Positions 19,862 to 27,314 of a stretch of DNA of 64,000 nt are shown here, one piece after another. The position numbers were made by a program, and so were the translations under genes. Source of the stretch: Paludisphaera soli. Lineage in GTDB: Bacteria > Planctomycetota > Planctomycetia > Isosphaerales > Isosphaeraceae. Every line of letters begins with the position of its first letter. The first letter of the stretch is position 1. Below the pieces are notes generated by a model. It was not told the origin of the DNA and made no database searches. It saw only the letters and a program-made list of their open reading frames with translations. The stretch is from contig NZ_JAALJI010000006.1 in assembly GCF_011064595.1 (NCBI RefSeq), positions 1 through 64,000 of the forward strand. The letters are read 5' to 3'.

Positions 19862-20416
19862 TCAGGGCTTGGCGACGCCGATGACGCCGACGGCGAGGCG
19901 GCCGCCGGCGTCGCCGGAAGGCTGGGTCTTGAGGTCGTCGGCCTTGGCGTGGACCACGAGGCCGCGACCGAGGATCGAGGTCGGGCCGTGGAACTTCAGG
20001 TGCGAGTCCTCGATCTCGATCGTAGCCTTGCCGCTCTCGTCGGCGGTGATGTTGCCGAGGTCGCCGACGTGCCGCATCGAGGCGCTGCGGTCGGCATGCT
20101 TCTCGCCGGTCGGGTTGAAGTGGCCGCCGGAGGCCATGCCGTCCTCGGACCAGGCACCGAACTCGTGGACGTGGAAGCCGTGCTCGCCGGGGGTCAGGCC
20201 GGTGATGACGCCGGAGACCTTCACCTTGCCGTCGTGCTCGGTGAACGTGATCTGGCCCTGGACCTTGCTGTCCTTGGTCGGGATGAGGGTCGCCACGGCC
20301 TTGGTGATCGCCGGCGCGGCGTGCGCCTTCTCTTCCGCGTGCTGGGCGGAGGCGGAGGAACCCAGCCCGATCAGGCCGCAAAACGCCAGCGCCGCGGCGC
20401 TCCGATGGATCGTCAT
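19862..20416 (-). CDS. sodC: Secreted Cu/Zn superoxide dismutase lacking the conserved disulfide
   Basis: 184 residues with signal peptide (AAALAFCGLIGLGSSASAQ). Metal ligands of Cu/Zn SOD are all visible: GFHVHEFG (two His), GGHFNP, KHADR, RHVGDLGN and its Asp, and GRGLVVHAKADD. It would dismutate superoxide in the periplasm. The two cysteines of the otherwise near-universal intrasubunit disulfide are absent: the loop after HVHEFG reads AWSEDGMASGGHFNP, and the usual RLACGVIG reads RLAVGVIG. ATG at 20416 chosen: AGGGAG lies 9 bases before it and the signal peptide follows. Confidence 0.9.
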   Translation of the reverse strand: MTIHRSAAALAFCGLIGLGSSASAQHAEEKAHAAPAITKAVATLIPTKDSKVQGQITFTEHDGKVKVSGVITGLTPGEHGFHVHEFGAWSEDGMASGGHFNPTGEKHADRSASMRHVGDLGNITADESGKATIEIEDSHLKFHGPTSILGRGLVVHAKADDLKTQPSGDAGGRLAVGVIGVAKP

Positions 20417-20684
20417 TGTCGCATTCTCCCTGGGTTGTCGGTCGCGTCGATCCGAGGGCCGACCATGGCGTCGGCCGTCGCTTTCACGATGGTCGAGGGT
20501 AGCCGTCGGGCCCTCGCGCCTCAAGGGGCCGCCCTTGAGGGATACCCTCTTACGCCCGCAAAGGCCGGGCCGCGATCGACGTTATTCGGAGGCCCCGCCT
20601 TGTATCGCCCCATCCGCGGCCCGATCATGGACCGATGATCCGCCCCGGCCCGGTCGCGCGGGGGCTCGTCGCGGAAACCGGCCC

Positions 20685-21755
20685 ATGTCCACGCCCGACC
20701 CCTTCGCCCCCACCCCGACCGACGCCCTGATCCTGGCCCGGCTGCTGCTCGCCGGGGCGAACGGCGCGAAGGCCGGGGACCTCCGCAAGGACCTGGAGCC
20801 GATCCTGGGCCGCCGCTGGCCGGGGACCGAGCTGGCCTCGGTGATCGACCGCGCCCTGATCAAGCTGGCCGCCGCCGGCCTGGTCGTCCAGCGGCCAGGG
20901 CGGACGAAACGCGCCCCGGCGACCTTCGCCGCGACCGACGAGGGCCGCCTCGCCGCGCTGGCGTTCCTGGGCGTCGAGGCGCTCCCCGAGAGGCCCAAAC
21001 CGACCTGGGCGGGGCTCAAGAAGTCGCTCCTGACCGCTCGGGCCCTGGGGCTGGACCCGGGCGCGGCGACGGCCCGGGACGACGTCCTCCGCGCCGTGCT
21101 GCTGGACCGCCAGGCCGCGCTGGGGCTCGGCGGGACGCCCACGCTCAAGCAGGCGAAGGAGGCCTGGACCCGCAAGCACCTGGGCCTGGGCCCGAAGGAG
21201 AAGGTCACGCTGGAGACCGTCCAGGCGGCCCTGTTCCGCCGCGCCCTGGCCGGAACGCCGACCGCGTCCGCGCCCGCCAAGGGGACGCTCGACCTGCTCC
21301 TGGCCGAACGCCTGGGCGCCCCCGGCAAGCCGTTCAAGACGCTCCGCGACGAGGTCGTCCGCCGCTGGGCCGAGGGGGACCCGGGCGTGGCCGCCGCCCC
21401 GACGACCGAGGCCGACTCCGAGCCCCCGGCCTCCCCCGCGCTCGACCTGGCGGCGTTCGCGGCCCGCGTCCGCGAGGCGGCGAAGGGCTGCCGGACGGGG
21501 CGGCACGGCGAGGACAAGGTGTTCGTCGTCCACGTCTGGCGGGCGCTCCAGCACGACCCCTCGTTCCGGGGGGGCGACTTCGCGCTCTTCAAGAAGCGGC
21601 TCGCCGAGGCCAACAACGCCCGGCTCCTGAGCCTCTCCCGCGCCGACCTCGTGCAGGCCATGAACCCCGAGGACGTCCTGCTCTCGGAGGTCCCCTACAT
21701 GAACACCTGCTTCCACTTCGTCCGCGACGAGCCGACGTGGAGGGCCTCGTCATGA
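20685..21755 (+). CDS. Winged-helix-like protein of a two-gene ATPase module
   Basis: 356 residues, not a family I can name. The N-terminal 100 residues (ALILARLLLAGANGAKAGDLRKDLEPIL ... LIKLAAAGLVVQRPGRTKRAPATFAATDEGR) look like a winged helix. A middle Lys/Leu-rich part (TLKQAKEAWTRKHLGLGPKEKVTLETV) follows. The C-terminal 90 residues form a compact domain (DKVFVVHVWRALQHDPSF, FKKRLAEANNARLLSLSRADLVQAMNPEDVLLSE, NTCFHFVRDE) that appears to be a second helical DNA- or protein-binding module. The frame is open far upstream, overlapping sodC in antisense; the ATG at 20685 is where protein-like sequence begins. Its TGA overlaps the next ATG (ATGA), so it is coupled to the ATPase. Confidence 0.68.
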   Translation: MSTPDPFAPTPTDALILARLLLAGANGAKAGDLRKDLEPILGRRWPGTELASVIDRALIKLAAAGLVVQRPGRTKRAPATFAATDEGRLAALAFLGVEALPERPKPTWAGLKKSLLTARALGLDPGAATARDDVLRAVLLDRQAALGLGGTPTLKQAKEAWTRKHLGLGPKEKVTLETVQAALFRRALAGTPTASAPAKGTLDLLLAERLGAPGKPFKTLRDEVVRRWAEGDPGVAAAPTTEADSEPPASPALDLAAFAARVREAAKGCRTGRHGEDKVFVVHVWRALQHDPSFRGGDFALFKKRLAEANNARLLSLSRADLVQAMNPEDVLLSEVPYMNTCFHFVRDEPTWRASS

Positions 21756-23557
21756 CCGACGACCCCGACCCGCGCGTCGCCGCCTTCTGCTCGCCCCGCG
21801 CGGCCGACCCGTTCCACGCGGTGGCCACGGCGTCGGACGTCTGGCGGCCCGACCCGTTCGACGTGGCCGCCGTCCACGGCCGCGTCCGCGCCTGGTTCGA
21901 CCGCGCCGTCGAACGCGCCCGGGACCCCTCGGGGCCGCCGGCGGGCCGGATGCTCCTGCTCCTGGGCGAGTCGGGCAGCGGCAAGACGCACCTCCTGCGC
22001 GCCTTCCGCAACCGCGTCCACGGCGCGGGACTGGGCTATTGCGCGTACATGCAGATGACGTCCTATACGGGCGACTATCCGCGCTATGCGCTCAACAACG
22101 TCGTCGAGTCGCTCGACCGCCCGTATTATGAGGGCCAGGCGCCCGAGTCGGGCCTGCGTCGGCTCTCCGACCGCCTCGCCGCGATGCTGGCGCCCGAGCC
22201 GGCCCGGGCCGTCGAGCGGCTCCGCGAGGGGGAGCTGGGCCAGGCCGCGATCGACGCGATCGTCGCCGAGGTGGCCGACGCCCTGATCCGCGACGAGCGG
22301 CTAGCGCGGGTGGACGTGGACCTGATGCAGGCCCTGCTCTACCTCCAGGCCGGCGACCCGGCGATCCACGCGCGGCTCCTGAAATACCTGCGCTGCGAGG
22401 ACCTCAACGCCCGCGACCGGCGTTATCTGGGGAACCTGGACCCCAGCACCTACACCGACGCCCCCTCGCGGATGATCGCGCGGATCGGCGGGCTGATCCA
22501 CGCCGTCGAGGGCGCGCCGCTGGTCGTCTGCGTGGACCAGCTCGAGGACGTGTTCGACCTGGACCAGGCGGCCGCCAAATTCCGGCGGGCGATGGCGACG
22601 CTCGGCGACCTGCTCAGCCGCGTGCCGTCGGCGATCGTGGTCGTCTCGTGCCTGGAGAACTTCTACGACGAGCTGAAGCCGATGCTCACGCGATCCACCC
22701 GCGACCGCGTGGAGAACGACCCCCGCCCCGCAGTGCTCGAGACCCCCTGCGCGCCCGAGGAGGTCCGCGCCCTGATCGCGCGTCGGCTCGATTATCTGTT
22801 CCGGTCGGCGGGCGTCGAGCCCAGGCCCGACGACCCGACTTTCCCGATCCCCGAGGCGCTGACGGCGGCCCTGGTGGGCCTGCGCGCCCGCGACGTGTTG
22901 CAGGAGTGCCAGGCGTACCGCGAGCGCTGCGTTGAGGAAGGGAAGATGGCCGCGCACCCTCCTGAAGCGGGCTCCGCGCCCGCCGCGGCGCGGGGCGATG
23001 AGGCCAGGCGGGCCGTGGACGAGATCGAGCGGGCGTGGGACGACTTCCGGAGCACCAGGGCCGAGCCCGTCCCGACCGAGAAGCGCGAGCTGGCGAAGGT
23101 CCTGGCCGCCGCGCTTCGGGAGGCTTCGATCGAGGCGGGGGACGACCCGGCTTCGATCCAGGCCCGCGTCGAGGGCCGATACGTGAGCTTCGAGGGCCCT
23201 CGATCGCGATTCACGGCGGGGGTCTGCAACCGCGCCGCGCAGGGGGGGGCCCTGGCGAAGCAGGTCGAGGAGCTGGCCGCTCTCGCCGCCGCCGAGGGCC
23301 GGCGGGCCGTGGCGGTCCGTTCGACCCCTTTCCCGGTCGGCAAGTCGTCCAAGGTCGCGAAGGTCCTCGCGGCGTTCGAGGCCGGCGGCGGCCTCCGGGT
23401 CGTCGTCGAAGACTCCGACTGGCGCGCCATGGCCGCCTTCGCCGCCTTTCGCGACCGCCGGGGCGACGATCCCGCCTTCGAAGCCTGGCGTAAACGCGCC
23501 CGCCCCTTGACCGGCCTGGGACCGTTGCGGACCATGCTGGATCTGGGCGCGATGTAG
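21752..23557 (+). CDS. AAA/STAND-like ATPase of a two-gene module
   Basis: 601 residues. Walker A is GESGSGKT (residues 72-79) after a leader that wraps DPFxAVAT; Walker B is LVVCVDQLEDVFD (about 257-269), the DQxE form common in STAND and conflict-system ATPases. Between them is a long helical insert with TSYTGDYPRYALNNVVESLDRPYY. The post-ATPase region (ALIARRLDYLFRSAG) resembles an AAA lid. The last 150 residues (VEGRYVSFEGPRSRFTAGVCN ... GGLRVVVEDSDWRAMAAFAAFRDRRGD) form an alpha/beta domain, perhaps restriction-endonuclease-like, without a clear catalytic triad. Overlaps the upstream gene by 4 bases. Chaperone, DNA-translocation or defence roles are all possible; unproven. Confidence 0.75.
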   Translation: MTDDPDPRVAAFCSPRAADPFHAVATASDVWRPDPFDVAAVHGRVRAWFDRAVERARDPSGPPAGRMLLLLGESGSGKTHLLRAFRNRVHGAGLGYCAYMQMTSYTGDYPRYALNNVVESLDRPYYEGQAPESGLRRLSDRLAAMLAPEPARAVERLREGELGQAAIDAIVAEVADALIRDERLARVDVDLMQALLYLQAGDPAIHARLLKYLRCEDLNARDRRYLGNLDPSTYTDAPSRMIARIGGLIHAVEGAPLVVCVDQLEDVFDLDQAAAKFRRAMATLGDLLSRVPSAIVVVSCLENFYDELKPMLTRSTRDRVENDPRPAVLETPCAPEEVRALIARRLDYLFRSAGVEPRPDDPTFPIPEALTAALVGLRARDVLQECQAYRERCVEEGKMAAHPPEAGSAPAAARGDEARRAVDEIERAWDDFRSTRAEPVPTEKRELAKVLAAALREASIEAGDDPASIQARVEGRYVSFEGPRSRFTAGVCNRAAQGGALAKQVEELAALAAAEGRRAVAVRSTPFPVGKSSKVAKVLAAFEAGGGLRVVVEDSDWRAMAAFAAFRDRRGDDPAFEAWRKRARPLTGLGPLRTMLDLGAM

Positions 23558-23618
23558 GCCGGATCGAGGGGCCGAGGCCGCGGACGAGTCCTGTCGGCGC
23601 CCTGCTGGACTCCACTCG

Positions 23619-23652
23619 TCTTCCCTTCCCCCGCCGGGGGGAAGGACGTTGA
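23619..23652. terminator. GC hairpin after the two-gene ATPase operon
   Basis: CGTCTTCCCTTCCCCC, GCC loop, GGGGGGAAGGACG: a long G/C stem 60 bases after the ATPase stop. The core resembles family 2 repeat ends, so it may be a solo repeat end acting as a terminator. Confidence 0.45.
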
Positions 23653-23692
23653 TGGCCCCGTGCACCCTGACTCGAACATCAAGCGGACCCCC

Positions 23693-26096: not shown

Positions 26097-27314
26097 TCAG
26101 CTCCAGTGCCTCGCCCACCGGATGCAGGCCTCCACGTCGCGCAGGGCCTTGCGCGCCTCGCGGTACTCCGGGTCTCTGCCGATCGCCTCGCGGAAGCAGC
26201 CGGCGGCCTCGTGGAAGCGCTCGCGGGCCCGCAGCACGAGTCCCAGATTGAGGTACGCCTCGTCGATGCGTCCCTTCGTGCAGGCGATGGCGGCCCGATG
26301 GACCTCCTCGGCCTCGTGCAGCCGCCCCTGCGTCGCCAGCACGCCGCCCAGGAAGATCCGGCCGGCGGCGTGATCGGGGTCGGCCTCGACGGCCTGCCGA
26401 TACCAGGCCGCCGCCTGTTCCGCATCGCCCGCCGCCTTGAAGAGGTGGCCCATGTACACGAGGGGGAGTCGTCGCCGTTCGGGACTGAAAAGCCCGAGGG
26501 CCTTGGCGGTCGCCTGCTCGGCCTCCTCGTAGCGGGCGACGTCGACCAGGGCTTCCCCCAGATGAATCCGGGCGACGGCGTCGTCGGGGTGGTCGATCAG
26601 GTAGCGTCGCGCCACGAGGATCGTCGAGGCCGGGTACGGACCGTTCGACAGCCTCCGCAATCTCTCGTACCGCCTGCGCCGGTTCACCCCGCCCTCTCGT
26701 CGCCGGAAGCTCGATCGGCCGGGTCGGCTTCGACGCTCCGCCCACCTGATGCAGGCCTCGACGTCGCGCAAGGCTTGTCGCGTCTCGCGATGTTCCGGGT
26801 CGAGTCGAAGCGTCTCCCGGAAGCATTCGGCGGCCTCGTGGAAGCGCTCGCGGGCCCGCAGCACCAGGCCCAGGTTGAGGTAGGCCTCGTCGAACCAGCC
26901 CTTCTCGCAGGCGAGGGCGGCCCGCTGGACTTCCTCGGCCTCGTGCAGCCGCCCTTGCTCCGCCAGGAGCCTGCCCAGGTGGATTTGGCCGGCCGCGTGG
27001 TCGGGGTCGGCCTCGGTGGCCCTTCGATACCAGCCCGCCGCCTGCTCCGGATCGCCCGCCGCCCGGAAGAGGTGGCCCATGTTACTCAGGGGGGGTCGTC
27101 GAAATTCGGGCGGGCAGAGATCCAGGGCCTTGGCGATCGCCTGCTCGGCCTCCTCGTAGCGGGCCATGCCGGTCAGAGAGTCGCCCAGCCACATCCAGAC
27201 GACCCCGTCGTCGGGGTAGTCGATCAGGTAGCGACGCGCGACGCGGATCGTCAGGGCGCGGTAAGGGCCCTTCGACAATCGCCTCAGGCGCCCTTTTCGC
27301 TCTTCCTGGCCCAT
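26097..27314 (-). CDS. TPR protein built from an internal tandem duplication
   Basis: 405 residues with no signal peptide. TPR units such as ARYEEAEQAIAKALDLCPPE, AAGWYRRATEADPDHAAGQIHLG and EAYLNLGLVLRARERFHEAAECFRETLRLDPEH are clear. Residues 1-190 and 215-405 are near copies: RRLSKGPYRALTIRVARRYLIDYPDD versus RRLSNGPYPASTILVARRYLIDHPDD, and both halves end LRDVEACIRWA. A basic linker (RRSRPGRSSFRRREGGVNRRRR) joins them. A recent in-gene duplication is therefore likely. Scaffold function assumed; partner unknown. Confidence 0.82.
   Translation of the reverse strand: MGQEERKGRLRRLSKGPYRALTIRVARRYLIDYPDDGVVWMWLGDSLTGMARYEEAEQAIAKALDLCPPEFRRPPLSNMGHLFRAAGDPEQAAGWYRRATEADPDHAAGQIHLGRLLAEQGRLHEAEEVQRAALACEKGWFDEAYLNLGLVLRARERFHEAAECFRETLRLDPEHRETRQALRDVEACIRWAERRSRPGRSSFRRREGGVNRRRRYERLRRLSNGPYPASTILVARRYLIDHPDDAVARIHLGEALVDVARYEEAEQATAKALGLFSPERRRLPLVYMGHLFKAAGDAEQAAAWYRQAVEADPDHAAGRIFLGGVLATQGRLHEAEEVHRAAIACTKGRIDEAYLNLGLVLRARERFHEAAGCFREAIGRDPEYREARKALRDVEACIRWARHWS

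Follow-up and report, generated by a model that had tools for sequence, protein, structure and literature searches.

A sodC-linked winged-helix and Orc/Cdc6-like ATPase gene pair in an Isosphaeraceae planctomycete is very probably a reduced form of a nuclease, AAA+ and HerA operon family

The locus described here raises the question of what a winged-helix protein and an AAA/STAND-like ATPase, encoded by two overlapping genes (A and B), do in a planctomycete cell, and whether the two genes form a complete system. The window, which is the whole 64-kb stretch of DNA that was analysed, lies on contig C154 of genome G000, an Isosphaeraceae-like planctomycete. The original prediction, made from the sequence alone, read the pair as a compact unit closed by a hairpin and as the likely signature of a mobile or defence module. 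Both open reading frames and their ATGA overlap proved to be real; coding is backed by codon-model scores, by the many genomes that carry orthologues (36-80% identity), and by an excess of interspecies changes at third codon positions. The start of gene B was placed at the ATG at 21752, with the GTG at 21737 also possible. The hairpin does exist 3′ of gene B, but the region folds no more stably than shuffled sequences (z -0.62) and a T tract is missing; the hairpin was rejected as a terminator. Elsewhere in the window, positions 26097-27314 encode a 405-amino acid TPR-like protein that seems to be internally duplicated, with two similar halves. The features of the locus are collected in Table 1.

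Table 1. Coordinates of the gene pair, its domains and its surroundings in the window, and of one further HerA layout in relatives
Feature	Position	Strand	Basis or remark
sodC (Cu/Zn superoxide dismutase)	19862..20416	-	Pfam Sod_Cu 1.9e-44; conserved neighbour marking the ancestral site
268-bp gap, position of nuclease gene X in relatives	20417..20684	+	X relic absent
Gene A	20685..21755	+	356-aa putative adaptor, winged-helix(-like) at both ends; AF2, orthologues
A, N-terminal winged helix (residues 11-95)	20715..20969	+	AF2; MarR/PadR/RosR folds at Z about 12
A, C-terminal second winged-helix-like domain (residues 255-347)	21447..21725	+	AF2 secondary structure
Gene B (short form)	21752..23557	+	601-aa Orc/Cdc6-like AAA+ ATPase with alpha/beta domain, without HerA part
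B, AAA+ domain (residues 9-414)	21776..22993	+	VIA-align Z 14.3 Cdc6, 13.7 TnsC, 13.5 RdrA, 13.4 BrxC
B, Walker A GESGSGKT (residues 72-79)	21965..21988	+	G72, G75, G77, K78 and T79 invariant in 59 homologues
B, Walker B DQLED (residues 262-266)	22535..22549	+	In 59 homologues, D262 invariant and both Q263 and E265 conserved in at least 90%
B, C-terminal alpha/beta domain (residues 438-598)	23063..23545	+	AF2; order a-b-b-b-a-b-a-b, without E-x-K
135-bp gap to next ORF, position of ~460 HerA motor codons in relatives	23558..23692	+	HerA relic absent
Hairpin 3′ of B, 9-bp stem	23624..23645	+	Stability at chance level, without T tract
Third HerA layout, some Isosphaeraceae	L139:5001-10757; also L137, L138, L140, L142

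Gene A and its scanned relatives matched no Pfam, PADLOC or NCBIfam model, and its description comes from the AF2 model (pLDDT 87.5). The winged-helix N-terminus that had been proposed is present in this model. The C-terminal domain, which had been predicted to be purely helical, is instead modelled as helices together with three strands, in an order that resembles a second winged helix. This domain is the best conserved part of the protein, with F302, L306, D321 and S334 invariant, while the region between the two winged helices is helical and variable. As modelled, the product of gene A is a double winged-helix protein.

The product of gene B passes the Pfam cut-offs for both AAA_16 (39.5 bits against 32.6) and nSTAND1 (31.0 bits against 27.1), which places a STAND-type NTPase domain in the protein and upholds its assignment as an AAA/STAND-like ATPase; the Walker A and Walker B motifs on which that assignment had leaned are present, with key residues that are invariant or nearly so. 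No Pfam repeat family of the kind that forms STAND-style C-terminal superstructures was found in B, and its C-terminus is a single alpha/beta domain. For the AAA+ part, Cdc6/Orc tops both the Foldseek and the VIA-align lists, the latter with a Z score of 14.3 over 250 residues. The extra alpha/beta domain that had been foreseen is visible in the AF2 model (pLDDT 91) at about residues 440-600 and carries the conserved motifs CNK..GG.L..Q, VRST.FP and VVVEDSDWR. Its modelled strand order resembles that of restriction enzymes; a profile comparison with Mrr_cat gave P 0.08, homology to Mrr or DUF559 was below significance in profile comparisons, and a sequence search of the PDB returned chance-level rows only. 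An active nuclease was rejected, as neither an E-x-K nor a D occurs at the expected positions, and the modelled fold is possibly that of an inactive restriction endonuclease (REase). The short B also matched the PADLOC model mad8, weakly (4.6e-4).

Whether A and B are the whole system was answered by their relatives. In other genera the B orthologues are 1,057-1,088 amino acids long and consist of the AAA and alpha/beta domains, a linker, and then a full HerA-like ATPase (Pfam HerA_C 1.2e-11 and DUF87 6.5e-9; PADLOC HerA 1.1e-11 and mad8 1.4e-21). The neighbourhood survey that had been suggested to look for a recurring third gene did find one. This gene, X (366-440 amino acids), lies directly upstream of A and encodes a C-terminal DUF559/Vsr-like nuclease domain (DUF559 matches of 7e-8 and 3e-9) that resembles solved Vsr-like endonucleases. 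The core E..D..E-x-DG...RDRxKD is invariant, as are the expected acidic residues in 31 sequences. The idea of a complete two-gene unit is thus contradicted by the intact relatives, in which the nuclease gene and the fused HerA motor recur and from which the window pair differs by the loss of both.

As a three-gene system, intact X-A-B is widespread: it occurs in Planctomycetota, Myxococcota, Nitrosomonas, Thiorhodospira, a filamentous cyanobacterium, Verrucomicrobiota and a metagenome-assembled genome of Bacteroidota. One of its bearers is Singulisphaera acidiphila DSM 18658 (L041/L058). Among the 68 loci of this family (system 1), which come from at least six phyla, HerA is present in 55, of which 43 also have X; ten lack HerA and have enough downstream sequence for this to be judged. 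The distribution is patchy, with matches, mostly weak, in 8 of the 246 genomes of an evenly drawn phylum sample. Relatives of the pair were not found in phages or in IMG/VR contigs, no multi-gene model that matches X-A-B was found in PADLOC 2023 (PADLOC and Pfam recognise parts only), and a literature search for HerA together with DUF559 gave nothing relevant. Several Myxococcota B proteins (L070, L092, L101, L105, L109) share, as a clade, an N-terminal extension of ~190 amino acids without a Pfam match.

The genus of the window and a second Isosphaeraceae clade have lost both X and the HerA part; in them A is followed by the short B. Relics of X or HerA were looked for in the gaps beside the window pair and none was found, and a genome-wide search of the reduced genomes for X elsewhere returned only the X′ gene of a second system that is described below. 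The gene sodC adjoins intact X-A-B at three loci (L037, L039, L057), A-B with HerA but without X at L038/L055 and L143, and A-B without either in the window genus and at L114. Since the intact, X-less and HerA-less forms all stand beside sodC, the system was pruned at an inherited site, and the window pair is very probably a reduced X-A-B. The HerA-less Isosphaeraceae forms fall into two well-supported clades in the tree, but a single shared origin survives the AU test (p-AU 0.208), so that the reduced form may have arisen either once or twice. The B of Polyangium fumosum (L076) also lacks HerA, through an independent event, and the gene after it encodes a WD40-repeat protein whose N-terminus is NTPase-like. 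In one congener (G001), a DDE_5 transposase has inserted between sodC and A (L034:12429-13706).

With nuclease and motor gone, the pair might be a decaying remnant, its function lost and A-B on the way out. Such decay would fit the missing X and HerA parts, the congener G005, which lost the pair by a local rearrangement that leaves sodC and the downstream hydrolase-like gene about 24.6 kb apart, and genome G047, where an IS-type insertion within B interrupts X-A-B (L046:7056-13759). It is nevertheless unlikely, because five congeners and the second, divergent clade all retain undamaged reading frames, gene overlap and ATPase motifs, and because B is truncated cleanly at a domain boundary. Moreover, between congeners both genes show a third-position excess and YN00 omega values of 0.03-0.04, like those of the flanking genes, values that are rough owing to dS near saturation and that are read as evidence of constraint only. 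Judged from these sequence comparisons, A and the short B are under purifying selection. The Isosphaeraceae series, in which X-A-B, A-B with HerA and A-B without HerA occur at one inherited site, amounts to a natural dissection experiment that shows which parts selection keeps once the motor and the nuclease go.

The same stability of position within the genus and the family, together with a fold closest to Cdc6/Orc and the shedding of motor and nuclease, could also suggest a domesticated Orc/Cdc6-like DNA-binding ATPase pair that serves replication, repair or regulation and is possibly linked to stress through sodC. Such a housekeeping role is quite improbable in view of the loss in G005, the absence of the pair from many Isosphaeraceae and from most of the phylum, downstream neighbours that are not conserved between genera, and a swapping of effectors in relatives that is unlike housekeeping genes. 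Two findings had been named in advance as speaking against a defence module: vertical inheritance beside non-defence genes was observed within Isosphaeraceae, with G005 lacking the pair, while no match to a housekeeping family was obtained.

The effector swapping concerns the position of X directly upstream of A. In Minicystis rosea this position is held by an EAD5-CHAT protein and a caspase-family protein (L082:7264-8996), and in two Polyangium species by YcaO and TfuA (L113:7218-9250 and L076:7252-9227), which were assigned by a Pfam run in one species and by sequence in the other. Conflict-type genes also occur near some loci, namely TIR-AAA_21 (L118), ResIII-PLD-DUF3427 (L092), an AAA_21 and HNH-like pair (L061), and a TIR-like gene with a probable SIR2 gene (L075), the former probably being the ThsB match of the pooled scan. 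The flanks of the other loci are ordinary, and only some intact operons have defence-like flanks. When 103 flanking proteins were pooled for a PADLOC scan, run without a control set, isolated ThsB, PDC-S03, PD-T4-6-type and one mad6 matches came up, and enrichment in defence islands is not claimed. The defence-like part of the original prediction stands in that the pair belongs to a nuclease, AAA+ and HerA family of the conflict type, patchy across phyla, and falls short in that its location is not explained by defence islands.

In terms of mobility, a complete operon of the second system lies on the mobilizable Methylobacterium aquaticum plasmid pMaq22A_1p (L182:5225-10093), and a piece of system 1 lies on a conjugative Xanthobacter plasmid. 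The gene table of pMaq22A_1p lists no gene in the L182:5225-10093 stretch. The window copy itself keeps one position, next to sodC, across the genus and several Isosphaeraceae, which does not agree with its description as a mobile module.

The window's own genome also carries system 2, an intact divergent operon X′-A′-B′ on another contig (C143; L003:8570-13409). It encodes a DUF559 nuclease (X′), a 219-amino acid A′, and a B′ of 1,065 amino acids with AAA, alpha/beta and HerA parts, which matches mad8 at 4.3e-27. A third layout, present in genus g17, which carries the reduced pair, consists of a 383-amino acid protein, a separate AAA protein of 744 amino acids, and a PDDEXK_1-HerA fusion of 786 amino acids. 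Another intact HerA system was found in nine of ten genomes with the reduced pair and in none of ten with a full-length B (Fisher p 1e-4 by genome and 0.03 by genus, in a sample of essentially two clades). Because of the two-clade sample, and because G004 keeps the pair without system 2 or 3, the co-residence is treated as a lead only. A stand-alone HerA-like ATPase of 833 amino acids (L126:8582-11083, on contig C79 of G000) was rejected as the lost motor, since every other congener checked has a similar gene, whether or not it carries the pair, and the neighbours of this gene are unrelated.

A partnership of A-B in trans with the co-resident system is rather doubtful on present evidence, and so, to much the same degree, is the more specific arrangement of a sensor pair without nuclease or motor that acts in trans with, or regulates, the divergent HerA-nuclease system of the same cell. 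If it were true, a defence system minus its effectors would have come to serve a different system as its recognition or regulatory module, and the series at the sodC site opens the question of whether defence systems share parts across loci. A guard, antidote or decoy role, in which the short A-B would moderate or antagonise the co-resident HerA system through inactive mixed complexes, would account for the co-residence and for the retention of the AAA+ domain and its motifs. It seems a poor prospect, since the B of system 2 is only about 25-31% identical to the window B, which makes mixed rings doubtful, and since G004 has no partner and only two clades are involved.

Our preferred reading, to which we give a probability of roughly 0.6, is that the pair is what remains, at its original site, of an X-A-B system of the Orc/CDC6-HerA capture kind: its adaptor and ATPase core, maintained and most likely still tied to the response to invaders. 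By analogy with named systems, the X-A-B family as a whole is probably directed against invaders. In the intact systems, invading DNA would be bound by the winged helices of A and the Orc/Cdc6-like part of B, which would assemble on it into an ATP-dependent switch; the C-terminal HerA motor of B would then reel the DNA in, and the nuclease of X, or a substitute effector, would destroy the DNA or the cell. In the window genus, A and the short B would have been kept as a DNA-sensing ATPase core without motor or nuclease, and their job may be to lend recognition to X′-A′-B′ or to tune it. A point against the anti-invader reading is the vertical stability of the locus beside sodC, which is not what a typical defence island shows.

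Several named systems share parts of this architecture. DndFGH (DndG/DndH) follows a similar logic of a winged-helix (wHTH) protein, a HerA/FtsK motor and a nuclease, but its ATPase and its nuclease are different and belong to separate families. The MADS model mad8 matches the HerA-like part of full-length B relatives and only weakly the short B, while A, and the X and A of intact relatives, match no mad model. The N-terminal Orc/Cdc6 AAA+ part of BREX BrxC has the same fold as B (Z about 13.4), BREX likewise combines AAA+ with wHTH, and BREX-related capture (BRC) systems also recruit HerA (PMC12839542). However, B is much shorter than BrxC and continues into a different alpha/beta domain, and PglZ, the BrxX methylase and BrxA/B were not noticed in the list of neighbouring ORFs beside A-B.

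The nearest named system to X-A-B was not predicted until 2024, when neighbourhoods with an Orc/CDC6 ATPase, an inactive REase, an active REase, HerA/FtsK and a wHTH protein were described (Iyer et al., NAR 2024; PMC10853773), and the Orc/CDC6-HerA/FtsK capture systems were predicted to intercept invading DNA. Like these, X-A-B places an Orc/Cdc6-clade AAA+ ATPase, a HerA/FtsK motor, a separate wHTH protein and an active nuclease in one operon, with a possible inactive REase next to the AAA+ and with links to TIR/STAND-type conflict genes. X-A-B differs in that its presumably active nuclease is DUF559/Vsr-like and has its own gene, HerA is fused to the AAA+ protein, and proteases or YcaO-TfuA can occupy the effector position; neither 'DUF559' nor 'Vsr' occurs in the main text of PMC10853773. 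The intact X-A-B operon fits a DUF559-nuclease variant of the Orc/CDC6-HerA capture kind, and the window copy, which has the Orc/Cdc6-clade AAA+ and the wHTH component but lacks two defining features, motor and nuclease, is for that reason a reduced derivative of this kind rather than a member of it.
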